A program made the translations under genes and the position numbers. A model generated the notes under the pieces. That model searched no databases and was not told the origin of the DNA. It saw only the letters and a program-made list of their open reading frames with translations. DNA of 64,000 nucleotides from Chloroflexota bacterium (GTDB taxonomy: Bacteria > Chloroflexota > Anaerolineae > Anaerolineales > Villigracilaceae), in the NCBI GenBank assembly GCA_013112685.1, contig JABFGC010000002.1, positions 1,870,902 through 1,934,901 on the forward strand, in the 5' to 3' direction. Shown one piece after another: positions 10,908-59,996 of this stretch (positions within the stretch are counted from its first letter, which is position 1; each line of letters begins with the position of its first letter).

Positions 10908-11074
10908 CCACCCGCGCGCCGTCATCCGAAACTACCCCCACCCTCCTCCCCCAAATCCGACAGAAGTATTTTTGTTGTTATTCAAAGTTCCATGTCGGAT
11001 TTGGGGGAGGTGCCGAAGGCGGAGGGGGTTGACCACCACACCCCGCCGCACGGACAGCCTCCCCTCCCCAAAGC
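10908..11074. repeat. ~167 bp repeat, copy A, with internal 18 bp inverted repeat
   Basis: It is nearly identical to 11763-11927; the visible difference is 2 bp (CACCACACCCCG versus CACCACCCCG). Inside, CCTCCCCCAAATCCGACA pairs perfectly with TGTCGGATTTGGGGGAGG across a ~30 nt AT-rich loop. The two copies flank the DUF2283/DUF4258-like gene pair in direct orientation. Confidence 0.85.
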
Positions 11075-11177: not shown

Positions 11178-11390
11178 TTACGCGGCAACCGTCTCAAACA
11201 CCACATTCAACCGTGAAGAAGCAGGCAAAATATAATTGAGTTTTTCAAACCCAATCACGTTTCCATTTTTATCCTTCATCAAAATCACTTCGTCGCCAGT
11301 TTCTTCGGCGACAGCCTCATCCTGGGGATTACCGAACCAGACGGTCAGCGTATTGCCTTGTTGATCGTAGTAAACCTTTACTTGTGCCAT
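11178..11390 (-). CDS. DUF2283 family protein
   Basis: The 70-residue protein shows the DUF2283 pattern: VKVYYDQQGNTLTVWF, E-E-T-G-D-E-V-I-L-x-K-D, then GNVIGFEKLNYI. The fold is small and beta-rich. Family members sit beside small partner genes and are suspected antitoxin-like or accessory factors, but no activity is established. Its start overlaps the end of the upstream gene (11378) by 13 bp, so the two are translationally coupled. The pair is bracketed by two direct copies of a ~166 bp repeat, which suggests they move or duplicate together. Confidence 0.82.
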   Translation of the reverse strand: MAQVKVYYDQQGNTLTVWFGNPQDEAVAEETGDEVILMKDKNGNVIGFEKLNYILPASSRLNVVFETVAA

Positions 11391-11701
11391 ATTCGTTCTC
11401 CTTCTTTCACCGCGTCAGTTGGATACGCGGTAACCAAGAAACCTTCACCATCCAGACGTTTCGTCACCGCACAAACCCACCTGCCAATTCGTTCAGGCTT
11501 GTAGAAAAGATAAACGCTTGGGTCTTTCTTGCTCAAGCGGATCTCGTCAGGGTTTTGCAGAACATCTTGAACATCGGTTTCACGTCCAAACATGACAGGG
11601 TGCTTGATGGTGACAATCACATTCCAATACTCAACCGTCACGCGGACACGAAAACCAAGCGGCGTTTCGACTTCAAAAAGGATTTCGTTGTTGTCTGTCA
11701 T
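11378..11701 (-). CDS. DUF4258-like small protein
   Basis: The 107-residue protein precedes and overlaps the DUF2283 gene. It contains IKHPVMFGRETDVQDVLQNPDEIR, then YLFYKPERIGRWVCAVTK and GFLVTAYPTDAVKEGE. This pattern (position-specific H-P, N-P-D-E-I, Y-x-K-P, T-A-Y-x-T-D) resembles the DUF4258/barnase-EndoU-colicin-like toxin superfamily, often paired with DUF2283. I infer a toxin-antitoxin-like or domesticated nuclease pair; the assignment rests on motif similarity only. Confidence 0.6.
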   Translation of the reverse strand: MTDNNEILFEVETPLGFRVRVTVEYWNVIVTIKHPVMFGRETDVQDVLQNPDEIRLSKKDPSVYLFYKPERIGRWVCAVTKRLDGEGFLVTAYPTDAVKEGERIWHK

Positions 11702-12232
11702 AGGTTATTTTATATCACAAAACCCCTCCGCATGGACAGCCTCCCCTCCCCAAAGCGGACTTCCACCCGCGCGCCGTCATCCGAAACTACCCCCACCCTC
11801 CTCCCCCAAATCCGACAGAAGTATTTTTGTTGTTATTCAAAGTTCCATGTCGGATTTGGGGGAGGTGCCGAAGGCGGAGGGGGTTGACCACCACCCCGCC
11901 GCACGGACAGCCTCCCCTCCCCAAAGCCTTGCGTTGAGCAGGTGGTTGAGCTTGTCGAAACCCTGTCGAAACGGACTTCCACCCGCGCACCGTCATCCTC
12001 ACCGAAACCATCCACGAATTTTTCACGAATACTCGAATTGCGCACCGCCCATTCGTTTATTCGTGGTTCTTCATTCGTGGACGGCTTTCCACTTCCGCCC
12101 GCACGCCATCATCCGTTCCAGTCCGAAGGCGATGGGTTGAGCATGTCGAAACCACTTCCATGTGCTGAGAAGGGAATTCATTCCCGCCGTTGATCATCCT
12201 TCCCCGTGCTTTATGGCAAAGCCGATAACGTT
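11702..12232. repeat. Composite repeat region including copy B (11763-11927)
   Basis: No gene is supported. Copy B of the ~166 bp repeat occupies 11763-11927. Further on come GGTTGAGC..GTCGAAACC fragments (11941-11970, and 12130-12152 in part) and two more CTTCC-x-CCCGC-x-C-x-CC-x-TCATCC units (about 11974 and 12091). Open frames here are by-products of the GC-rich repeat. Confidence 0.7.
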
Positions 12233-14894: not shown

Positions 14895-15330
14895 GCCCCT
14901 ACCCTAACGGGCACATGTCCCCAATTCCGAAATTGAGGGTTGGGCATTTTCCTGAACCTCCATGAGTCGGGTTTGGAGAGGGTACCTGCATGGTAAACGT
15001 CAAGTCCTCAAATGCCTATACGCAGAGCAGGCGCGGAAAGAGATCCTGTCCAGGGAGGATTTATACCCTTCCTTGAGAGGATTGGAAACCTCCCCTGACT
15101 CGTTTTAAAACACATTTCGATATTTTGGGAAAGACTTCTAAAAGTCTCGGCGAAGACTTCTAAATGTGTATAGAAAGACTTCTAAATGTGTTTCTCCCCA
15201 AAACAGCCCGTTTTGCAAAAAGCCGACCCCGCAACGCCAACGAACGACGGACTTCGGAGGTCTAATTATCCAATATCGAATGCTCCGCTCTTCCCAACTC
15301 CACCGTCAGCGCCCAAGGTGCCCCACCCTG

Positions 15331-15362
15331 CCCTCCCCAAGTCCATGTGGACTTGGGGAGGG
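15331..15362. repeat. Perfect 15 bp stem hairpin, left of the DUF559 gene
   Basis: CCCTCCCCAAGTCCA and TGGACTTGGGGAGGG pair perfectly around a 2 nt loop. It shares the CCCTCCCCAAG arm with the longer hairpin on the other side of the nuclease gene. Confidence 0.85.
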
Positions 15363-15395
15363 TGTCACGAAGTGACGGGAGGGGTTCAAGAGAGG

Positions 15396-15743
15396 CTAAA
15401 GGTTCTCCAAAATCACTTCCAACACTTTCTCGATATTCTTCATCACATCATTGTTGTAAAAGCGCAAGACCCGATAACCTTTTGACTTCAGGAATGCAGT
15501 TCGTTCCGCGTCGTATTCTTCCTGCTCCAAGTGTTGACTACCATCCAATTCAATGACCAGCATTTTGCTCGGGGCGCAAAAATCTGTGATGTAATTTCCA
15601 ATTGCATGTTGGCGGCGAAAACCCACTCCCGCCAAACGATGGGCGCGCAAACGCGACCATAACTTTGCTTCCGCGGGAGTCTGATTTTTCCGCAGTTCCC
15701 CCGCACGGTGCATGATTCTTGGCGTTGAGCGTTTTTCAGTCAT
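15396..15743 (-). CDS. DUF559 endonuclease-like protein (Vsr-related fold)
   Basis: The 115-residue protein has the DUF559 order: an N-terminal R-x-N-Q-T-P-A-E-A-K-L-W helix, the GVGFRRQHAIGNYITDF strand pair, VIELDGSQHLEQ with the catalytic-type D and E/Q-H residues, and a final GYRVLRFYNNDV. The fold belongs to the PD-(D/E)xK/Vsr-like nucleases that nick DNA. It is single and complete, and lies between two hairpins that share a CCCTCCCCAAG stem, 34 bp from one and 26 bp from the other. This layout suggests a nuclease working on, or spreading with, the hairpin. That link is inference. Confidence 0.85.
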   Translation of the reverse strand: MTEKRSTPRIMHRAGELRKNQTPAEAKLWSRLRAHRLAGVGFRRQHAIGNYITDFCAPSKMLVIELDGSQHLEQEEYDAERTAFLKSKGYRVLRFYNNDVMKNIEKVLEVILENL

Positions 15744-15768
15744 GATTGATTTCTGCTACTCGTCCCAT

Positions 15769-15823
15769 GCCCCTCCCCATCCCTCCCCAAGTGCTTTGCA
15801 CTTGGGGAGGGATGGGGAGGGGC
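15769..15823. repeat. Perfect 26 bp stem hairpin, right of the DUF559 gene
   Basis: A 26 nt arm starting GCCCCTCCCCATCCCTCCCC is perfectly complementary to the following arm, with a TTT loop. It ends 8 bp before the ALDH stop codon and could also serve as terminator for either strand. Confidence 0.9.
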
Positions 15824-15830
15824 TAAGAAT

Positions 15831-18300
15831 TTACTCCCCCGTCGGCACCCAGATATTCTTCACCTGCGTCGCCTCATGCAGAAACTCGTGACCTTCTCCC
15901 TGCTCGCGATCCATCCAATCGCGGGGCAGACCGTAGCCGACCCACGTCCGCTTCATATTAGCAGCGGATTCGTTCTCCACGTGGTAACTGCCCTCGGCTG
16001 AGCCGAAGTACCAGACCGCGTCCACGTCTTCGTGCTGGACGAGAGTCTTGGTCAGGTGGTCGCGGTCGCCTGTGACGATGTTGACCACGCCAGGCGGCAC
16101 GTCGGACGTATCCAGCACTTGATAGAAGTCCGTCGCGGAGAGCGGATATTTCTGGCTGGGAATCATCACGACCGTGTTGCCGCGCGCAATGGCAGGCGCC
16201 ATGAGCGAGATAAAACCAAGCAGCGGCATCTCATCGGGACAGGCGATGCCGATCACGCCGACAGGCTCATTGACCGCCACCGTGATGCCGCGCAGGGTGG
16301 TTTCCTGCACAGTGCCGCCGTATTTGTCTGCCCATGCCGCATAGGTGAAGAGACGCTCCACCGCCGCGTCCACTTCGGCTTGTGCGGATTTTTTCGTGCG
16401 TCCCGTCATCTCAACGATTCGCTCGATGAACTCGGCGTTGCGCGCATCGAGATTTTCGGCGATGAAATACAGAATCTGCGAACGGTTGTAACCGTGACGC
16501 ATCGCCCAGCCTGGCTTGGCAACGTGCGCCGCGTGCGCCGCTTCCACCGCGTCGCGGATGTCCTTGCGGTTGCCGTCGCCAACCTGCCCTACGATCATTC
16601 CGTCCGCGCCGATGATGGTCATGGTGTAATGCCCGTCGGGGCGGACCTGTTTGCCGCCGATGTACATCTTCGGGGTGCGGTCCCACACGGGGAAGATCAT
16701 GTCCATTTGCCCGACCAACCGTCGGCGCGGCAGGACGCGCAGGCACATGTTCGCCCCAGGTTAATGGCTTCACAGGTTCATTCGTCGCCGCATCCAAATC
16801 CATTGATGTCAAATCAGGTCGCGGACGATCCATCCATTTCGGTCGAATATATTCAAACAATCCTTCGCGCCCGCCTTCGCGTCCGAATCCCGATTCACGA
16901 TAACCGCCGAAGCCCGACGCACCGTCGAACAGATTCGTGCAGTTGACCCACACCGAGCCCGCCTTGATCTTGCTCGCCACATCGAGCGCGAGATTGATGT
17001 TATCGCTCCACACGCTCGCCGCGAGACCGTAGCGCGTGTTGTTTGCAAGCGCAATCGCTTCTTCGGGCGTGCGGAACGTGAGCGAGACCAGCACGGGTCC
17101 GAAGATTTCCTCCTGCACCGTCGCCGCCGCGGGATCGAGTCCCGTGATGAGTGTGGGTTTGTAGAACAATCCTTTTTCGGGCAGGCGGATGTTCGGCTGA
17201 TAACACTCGCCGCCTTCCGCAATACCTGTCTTCACCCAACTGTCAATCGTCTCCCATTGGGTCTTGTCCACGATGGCGCCCATGTCAATCGCCTTGTCGA
17301 GCGGGTCGCCCACGCGCATGTGTTCCATGCGGGCTTTGAGTTTGCGGATGAATTTGTCCGCGACGTTTTCCTGCACGATGAGCCTTGATCCCGCGCAGCA
17401 GACCTGACCCTGATTGAACCAGATCGCATCCACCACCCCTTCAATTGCTCCATCCAAATCGGCATCTTCGAACACGACGAAGGGACTCTTGCCCCCCAAC
17501 TCCAGCGACAGTTTTTTGCCCGAGCCAGCAGTCTGATGGCGCAGTGTGCGCCCGACATCCGTCGAACCCGTGAAGGCGATCTTGTCCACGTCGGGGTGCG
17601 TGACGATCATCGAACCCGCGCTGCTCGAACCCGTGATGACGTTAACCACGCCAGCGGGCAGTCCCGCCTCCGCGACGATCTCCGCGAACAACAGCGCCGA
17701 GAGCCGCGTGTACGATGCTGGCTTCAACACCACCGTGTTGCCCATCGCAATCGCAGGTGCGATCTTCCATGCCAGCATCAGCAGCGGGAAGTTCCACGGG
17801 ATGATTTGTCCCACCACGCCGACGGGTTGGTAATCGCGCAGTTCGGTTTCCATGAGTTGCGCCCAACCCGCGTAATAGTAAAAGTGACGCGCCAGCAAAG
17901 GCACGTCAATATCGCGCGACTCGCGGATCGGCTTGCCGTTGTCCATGGATTCCAATACTGCCAGCAAGCGATGATGTTTCTGGATGTTGCGCGCAATCGC
18001 GTAAAGATAGCGAGCGCGGACGACGCCTGGGGTCTGGCTCCACGATTCGAAGGCCGTGCGCGCCGCGGCGATGGCGGCATCCACATCCTTCTTCTCCGCC
18101 TGCGCCGTCTCCGCCAGCAACTCCCCATTCGACGGGTCATATGAAGGATAATATTTCGCCCCTTTGGGCGTCACCCATTCGTTGTTGATGAACAGCCCGA
18201 ACTTGCGTCCGTGCTCGTCCAGCCACGCCTTGACAGCATCTGGCGCCTCGGGCGCAGGTCCGTATTCCATGGTTTTGAAGATTTCGAGGAAGGTGGTCAT
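15831..18300 (-). CDS. Two-domain aldehyde dehydrogenase (ALDH16-like), one frameshift
   Basis: The N-terminal ~500 residues form a complete ALDH: the IIPWNF cofactor loop (about 166-171), catalytic base E267 in LELGGKSP, and nucleophile in NQGQVCC (C301/C302). A linker of proline and alanine leads into a second ALDH-like region of ~290 residues (MYIGGKQ ... PVGVIGIACPDE ... VKNIWVPTGE) that ends before any catalytic cysteine. This double architecture, with a truncated second domain, is that of ALDH family 16. An extra base near 16712 breaks the frame at the linker. The deoC gene lies 115 bp downstream on the same strand, so the enzyme may oxidise acetaldehyde from deoxyribose-phosphate cleavage. 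Confidence in ALDH is high; the substrate is inferred. Confidence 0.85.
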
Positions 18301-59883: not shown

Positions 59884-59914
59884 AACCTCCAGCGCCGAAC
59901 CCCCCTCACCCTAA

Positions 59915-59987
59915 CCCTCTCCCAAAGGGAGAGGGGACTCCCTTCCCCCTGCGGGGGAAGGGCTGGGGAAAGTACCCCAAAGGGGTA
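59915..59987. repeat. Three consecutive GC-rich hairpins
   Basis: CCCTCTCCC-AAA-GGGAGAGGG, CCTTCCCC-CTGC-GGGGAAGG and TACCCC-AAA-GGGGTA follow one another between the two VWA genes. The first two resemble the CCCTCCCC hairpins near the DUF559 gene. Confidence 0.75.
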
Positions 59988-59996
59988 TGAGGGCAT

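Follow-up and report, generated by a model that had tools for sequence, protein, structure and literature searches.

Introduction

Several described systems resemble the locus studied here. The PIT element, also named BoxC or the intrastrand triplex motif (TM), is a palindromic repeat of E. coli and more than 260 genomes (Holder et al. 2015, PMC4666352, which cites Hoyne et al. 2000 for PIT). Its core is CCCTCTCCC-loop-GGGAGAGGG, followed by TTA or CCG and a third block, GGGTGAGGG, and it also occurs in inverted A+B pairs. It is linked to unstable loci. That study, which names no nuclease, found no mobility gene nearby and called the origin of the repeats unclear. Enterobacter sp. 638 carries 100 copies, for which the authors of that genome proposed a terminator role (PMC2869309), although earlier work cited in PMC4666352 found no terminator activity for PIT elements.

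REPIN-RAYT systems consist of palindromic dimers of tagged hairpins dispersed in the genome, with a nuclease gene (TnpA_REP) bracketed by the same repeats. RAYTs are Y1 HUH enzymes, and most known REPs carry a GTAG or CGTC tag (PMC3733652). A third group comprises the EDxHD homing endonucleases, such as I-Bth0305I, and Vsr. A DUF559 gene of Thermosynechococcus has been discussed among inteins as a relative of the EDxHD homing endonucleases (PMC9403480). The E. coli member of DUF559 is ycjD.

Here we describe a DUF559 gene bracketed by hairpins in a member of the Chloroflexota, and show that such bracketing recurs in a dozen or more bacterial phyla. No paper joining DUF559 to hairpins, REPs or PIT elements was found in the open-access text searched, which did not include subscription papers or preprints. 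The link to DUF559/YcjD, the nuclease-bearing long form of the repeat and its in-frame insertion into genes are additions made here, whereas the dispersed repeat itself has been described before.

Architecture of the locus

The analyzed stretch, referred to in the following as the window, is 64,000 nucleotides of contig JABFGC010000002.1 (GCA_013112685.1), from a 4.6-Mb genome. Its relevant features are as follows.

15396-15743, minus strand: DUF559 (PF04480) gene, 115 aa, with a predicted Vsr-like fold
15321-15384: two-hairpin unit on the 3' side of the gene, with outer arms CCCC(ACCC)..GGGAGGGG around the hairpin at 15331-15362 and a small hairpin, GTCACGAAGTGAC
15769-15823: 26-bp-stem hairpin on the 5' side of the gene
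15832-15852: 3' end of the aldehyde dehydrogenase (ALDH) gene, the original copy of a 21-nt repeat flanking the insert (TACTCCCCCGTCGGCACCCAG)
15296-15316: second, diverged copy of the same 21-nt repeat (AACTCCACCGTCAGCGCCCAA)
10936-11031: nuclease-free unit (hairpin 10945-11010 plus a small hairpin and outer arms)
11791-11886: direct-repeat copy of the preceding unit (hairpin 11800-11865)
59903-59991: nuclease-free PIT-like unit

The first-pass annotation had reported a DUF559 gene between two hairpins with a shared arm, and this observation was confirmed. The hairpin at 15331-15362 has a 15-bp perfect stem and a 2-nt loop and lies 33 nt past the stop codon of the gene, while that at 15769-15823 has a 26-bp perfect stem and a 3-nt loop and lies 25 nt before the start. 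The two share a 12-nt arm, ACTTGGGGAGGG. The sequence CCCTCCCCAAG, allowing up to one mismatch, occurs eight times in the window against 1.2 expected, and none of 100 shuffles reached this number. When folded as single strands, the two hairpins lay at z = -6.3 and -10.0, and no shuffle folded as well. The larger two-hairpin unit that contains the 15331 hairpin, with outer arms CCCC/GGGG, had been missed by the annotation.

The related nuclease-free hairpins that the annotation had listed were also found, with small shifts in position. Those at 10945-11010 and 11800-11865 (18-bp stem, 30-nt loop) have the same plan and are copies of one another in direct orientation, about 855 bp apart; the unit at 10936-11031 folded at z = -6.8. 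Together the two units bracket a small two-gene module, encoding a DUF2283 protein (11178-11390) and an unknown protein (11378-11701), reminiscent of a hairpin-flanked cassette. The element at 59903-59991 is a two-hairpin unit with 9-10-bp stems, CCCTCTCCC and CCCTTCCCCC arms, and pairing outer arms.

The window gene's own hairpin type (CCCTCCCCAARTCC..) has only two exact-pattern sites in its genome, and a looser pattern, CTCCCC.AARTY, gave three, so that the idea of the exact window hairpin as a high-copy family was rejected. The broader type CCCTCYCC..GGRGAGGG has 110 matches in the genome, against 2 for a control pattern. The dispersed units, such as that at 59903 and a unit in the methionine synthase gene, metH (locus L087; genomes, contigs and loci of the comparison set are designated G, C and L), have the PIT core and third block listed in Table 1 of PMC4666352. 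The hairpins that bracket the window gene are a variant with a similar plan but a different core, CCCTCCCCAAGTCC..GGACTTGGGGAGGG followed by GGGTGGGG.

The predicted nuclease

The 115-residue protein matched PF04480 over residues 11-115 with 139 bits (E = 5e-41) against a cut-off of 20.6 bits. The only other model to match was the related MTES_1575, and there was no match to a Y1 domain, which a RAYT would have. An AlphaFold2 model (pLDDT 89) gave a Vsr-like fold. The closest solved structures were NGO0050 of Neisseria gonorrhoeae (3hrl, Z 15.7, 47% identity), the homing endonuclease I-Bth0305I (3r3p, Z 11.8) and Vsr (1cw0, Z 9.8), with TnsA lower (Z 6.7). Residues E25, D54, E65, D67, H71 and D78 were invariant; for the pattern scan, a first, broad alignment was too diverse and a tighter one was used.

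The window gene is a free-standing ORF, not carried in an intron or intein. In four genomes, however, DUF559 sits inside intein-like insertions at the DPTC/CGSGTT motif of DNA methylases (L049, L050, L053, L054). The Pfam Intein_splicing model matched weakly, below its cut-off, in the two that were scanned, and CCC-hairpin-derived peptides occur inside the insertions as well. These insertions give independent support for a homing role. In-frame DUF559 plus hairpin-derived peptides (e.g., SPLPLGEG, PHPPAPSPKALGEGE) were also seen inside DNA methylase/type ISP and other large ORFs (L017, L041, L048, L051, L052, L055), and L052 has dozens of such peptide repeats in one 2024-codon frame.

Association of DUF559 genes with hairpins

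To test whether the arrangement is general, we first examined 30 DUF559 loci of the class, chosen by HMM score alone. Nearly all had CCCTCYCC/CCCCTTCC hairpins close to the gene, and 23 of 30 had them on both sides. In loci L018, L042 and L032, the hairpin unit forms tandem arrays (134-140-bp period in L018 and L042) with the DUF559 gene inside or beside the array.

We then scanned GTDB genomes with two DUF559 peptide patterns, which yielded 80 loci found by protein alone. By record title these come from a dozen or more phyla, including Chloroflexota, Cyanobacteriota, Planctomycetota, Pseudomonadota, Bacteroidota, Nitrospirota, Acidobacteriota, Myxococcota and Armatimonadota, although many are MAGs and single assignments may be wrong. 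Hairpins with the C-rich arm first lay on both sides in 35 of 69 loci (51%), compared to 4 of 488 (0.8%) other ORFs on the same contigs (p = 9e-32), and on either side in 87% compared to 8%. Their density was 2.81/kb near the gene and 0.078/kb more than 1.5 kb away, a 36-fold difference, and they outnumbered hairpins of the opposite order 156 to 8. The annotation had specified that hairpins equally common far from DUF559 genes would refute its proposal; this condition was not fulfilled.

The two sides of a locus carried the same hairpin core type in 48 of 54 cases (23.8 expected, with a maximum of 35 in 2000 shuffles), and core type was moderately clustered on the nuclease tree (28 changes compared to 34.3; 2 of 300 shuffles were as low). 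No general target duplication was found: in 59 loci, the longest match between the flanks outside the outer hairpins was 6.2 nt, compared to 5.8 nt in shuffled flank pairs, so no standard transposition signature exists.

In 150 genomes of the Anaerolineae class, the pattern CCCTCYCC..GGRGAGGG had a median count of 40 in genomes with a strong DUF559 hit and 6 in the others (p = 5e-12, not corrected for phylogeny), while the reversed control pattern gave 2 and 2. Eleven of 101 DUF559-negative genomes nevertheless carried at least 40 hairpin sites. Moreover, most hairpins in the window's own genome lie far from DUF559 (110 pattern matches against 11-19 DUF559 hits, many of them remnants). These observations, together with the tandem arrays with the gene inside (L042, L018), would fit a model in which the nuclease is a guest, a homing-type gene that uses existing PIT-type repeats as landing sites or recombination arms, while the repeats spread by other means, such as replication slippage or an unknown enzyme. 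We consider this less likely, because both flanks are usually complete units and not halves of one split target, because hairpin number follows DUF559, and because of the matched cores and their clustering on the nuclease tree, but it is not excluded.

Alternatively, an ordinary HUH/Y1 (RAYT) transposase might move the hairpins, with DUF559 as a bystander. Y1_Tnp is present in 110 of the 150 genomes, including the window's own. However, 0 of 20 Y1 genes in the class were bracketed, compared to 23 of 30 DUF559 genes. Y1 had no clear effect on hairpin number among DUF559-negative genomes (p = 0.11), whereas DUF559 had strong effects within both Y1 classes. In addition, the tag in the units read is CCCTCAYCCC, not the GTAG or CGTC described for most REPs. 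This explanation is therefore very unlikely.

Occupied and unoccupied sites

In one bacterial family, unit-DUF559-unit is inserted in frame in metH, between the pterin-binding and B12 domains, in 12 genomes (G111, G061, G089 and nine others). In G061, each flank is a complete palindromic dimer, CCCTCACCCCTAGCCCCTCTCCC...GGGGATGAGGG. At the same site, other genomes have a 12-18-nt linker (G027, G164), one complete unit (G152), a half unit (G174) or tandem units. The 12 metH nucleases form one clade (support 96) among 104 DUF559 proteins, but are patchy on the host metH tree, where their presence requires 11 changes, at least 5 of them forced by strong branches. One lineage tied to one site with patchy presence is what homing produces. 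Insert and host distances correlate weakly (rho 0.33, p = 0.034), however, so ancient insertion with repeated loss is not excluded and may explain part of the pattern.

At the window locus, relatives G027 and G227 run from the ALDH end into GGGAAGAGC without the nuclease, while in the window the element lies between the two diverged 21-nt copies of the ALDH 3' end. After the second copy, the sequence resumes as in relatives without the insert (comparison with relatives L201 and L060). The 21-nt repeat is better seen as part of what looks like an insertion hotspot than as a target duplication: in the genus, different modules, such as a nucleotidyltransferase-like gene, follow the ALDH 3' end, and diverged copies of its last ~21-28 nt recur downstream next to hairpin units (L197-L207, L060). 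The window ALDH itself (15831-18300) is split into two overlapping frames of 629 and 305 aa, whereas most relatives have one open frame of about 815 aa, reflecting either a frameshift or an assembly error.

The 67-bp core of the lone unit at 59903 recurs at many sites throughout the genus at roughly 85-97% identity. At the same site, G233 has one hairpin, G206 an inverted unit, and others nothing or unrelated repeats. The same permissive sites, this one (L229, L232, L233, L237) and that in metH (L088, L092, L098-L101), hold other short repeats in other species, e.g., GTCATGCCGAGCGCAGCGAAGCATCT, CAGATGAACTCAGATAAAT and GTAGACACGTACACAGGTACACA.

A further possibility was that the hairpins are transcription terminators or structural ends that accumulate around a small nuclease beneficial to the host (in repair or defense), with no mobility. 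The perfect, stable stems, the terminator role proposed for Enterobacter sp. 638 and the retention of ycjD in 3365 of 5426 complete E. coli genomes are consistent with this view. The rarity of such hairpins beside other ORFs, the in-frame insertions inside metH and methylase genes, and the occupied and empty states of one site speak against it, as does the reported lack of terminator activity of PIT elements, and we consider it unlikely.

DUF559 loci in E. coli, Klebsiella and N. gonorrhoeae

In those 3365 E. coli genomes, ycjD lies between sapF and fabI; it is found in place of eefRABCD in phylogroups A, B1 and C (PMC12817139). Because ycjD-negative strains carry the eefRABCD operon at sapF-fabI, this is not a simple empty site, and it was rejected as such. 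K-12 has 23 PIT sites. In a strain with K-12-like coordinates, triplex motif No. 9 of K-12 lies 168 bp past ycjD, next to a decayed second copy. The PIT element is on one side only; just upstream of ycjD, on the opposite side, is a 17-bp perfect hairpin of unrelated sequence (TCACCTCATTCTGACAA..; L256, 636-680). A Klebsiella record has a broken DUF559 gene followed by a PIT pair. A DUF559 locus in N. gonorrhoeae, assumed to be NGO0050 itself, is bracketed by direct repeats with a CTCTCCC hairpin, a different variant of the sequence; the title of the 3hrl entry makes no link to repeats.

A candidate repeat-and-nuclease mobile element

Most likely (probability about 0.55), the gene and its flanking hairpins are one mobile unit: a free-standing Vsr/EDxHD homing-type nuclease paired with a PIT/BoxC-type palindromic repeat. 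In this view, the full repeat unit is a palindrome of about 65-90 bp, comprising the tag CCCTCAYCCC, the hairpin CCCTCTCCC-loop-GGGAGAGGG, a spacer, a second hairpin and the inverted tag. The long form is unit-DUF559-unit, with the units in direct orientation, and the lone unit is the short, gene-less form. The sequences directly demonstrate the association, the structure of the units, their dispersal, the occupied and unoccupied versions of the same sites and the in-frame insertions, while the fold is a prediction. The activities of the nuclease, on the other hand, are inferred from sequence alone: it would recognize the C-rich arm, as duplex or as an extruded hairpin, and cut there or at an unoccupied site; break repair would copy the unit, with or without the gene, into the gap; and recombination between the two flanking units would remove the gene and leave one unit. 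That the nuclease moves the hairpins is likewise an inference. In the family studied in detail, the behavior looks more like homing to particular sites than like random transposition.

The annotation had interpreted the locus as a candidate for an undescribed hairpin-mobilizing system, with a layout recalling REP hairpins and their RAYT transposase but with a nuclease of another fold. This interpretation was partly supported. The association far exceeds chance in unrelated genomes, hairpins and gene are gained and lost at defined sites, and the layout is REPIN-RAYT-like with a different predicted fold, but the hairpins are not an undescribed repeat, since the core of the dispersed units matches the PIT/BoxC/triplex motif. 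The units at metH and 59903 are, like REPINs, pairs of hairpins in inverted order that form a larger palindrome and are dispersed in the genome. We nevertheless classify the gene as DUF559 with a Vsr/EDxHD fold and the dispersed units as PIT-type, and not the system as REPIN-RAYT, with which it shares neither enzyme nor tag, although it appears to work like one.

A more far-reaching reading, which we regard as tentative, is that DUF559/YcjD is the long-missing mobilizing enzyme of PIT/BoxC/triplex palindromes, and that these form a bacteria-wide class of repeat-plus-nuclease mobile element, built on a PD-(D/E)XK-like homing nuclease instead of an HUH transposase and able to insert in frame into host genes. 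If this is right, bacteria have a second repeat-and-nuclease mobile system that arose independently of REP/RAYT, and a family of unknown function gains a role. As ycjD is the E. coli member, the association provides a named candidate that can be deleted, overexpressed and purified in a laboratory strain.

DUF559 remnants were also found in a different setting. In genome G000 (C1, 963-979 kb; L012 18000-20000 and L013 1-14000), an integron-like array of toxin-antitoxin and AbiE-type modules (Gp49, HigB, BrnT, nucleotidyltransferases, AbiEi/AbiEii) has each module separated by a DUF559 remnant. All remnants are in the same orientation, and several carry a CTCCCCCAAATCCGAC hairpin. A similar array lies in another genus of the family (G148, C18; L063 5600-11700).
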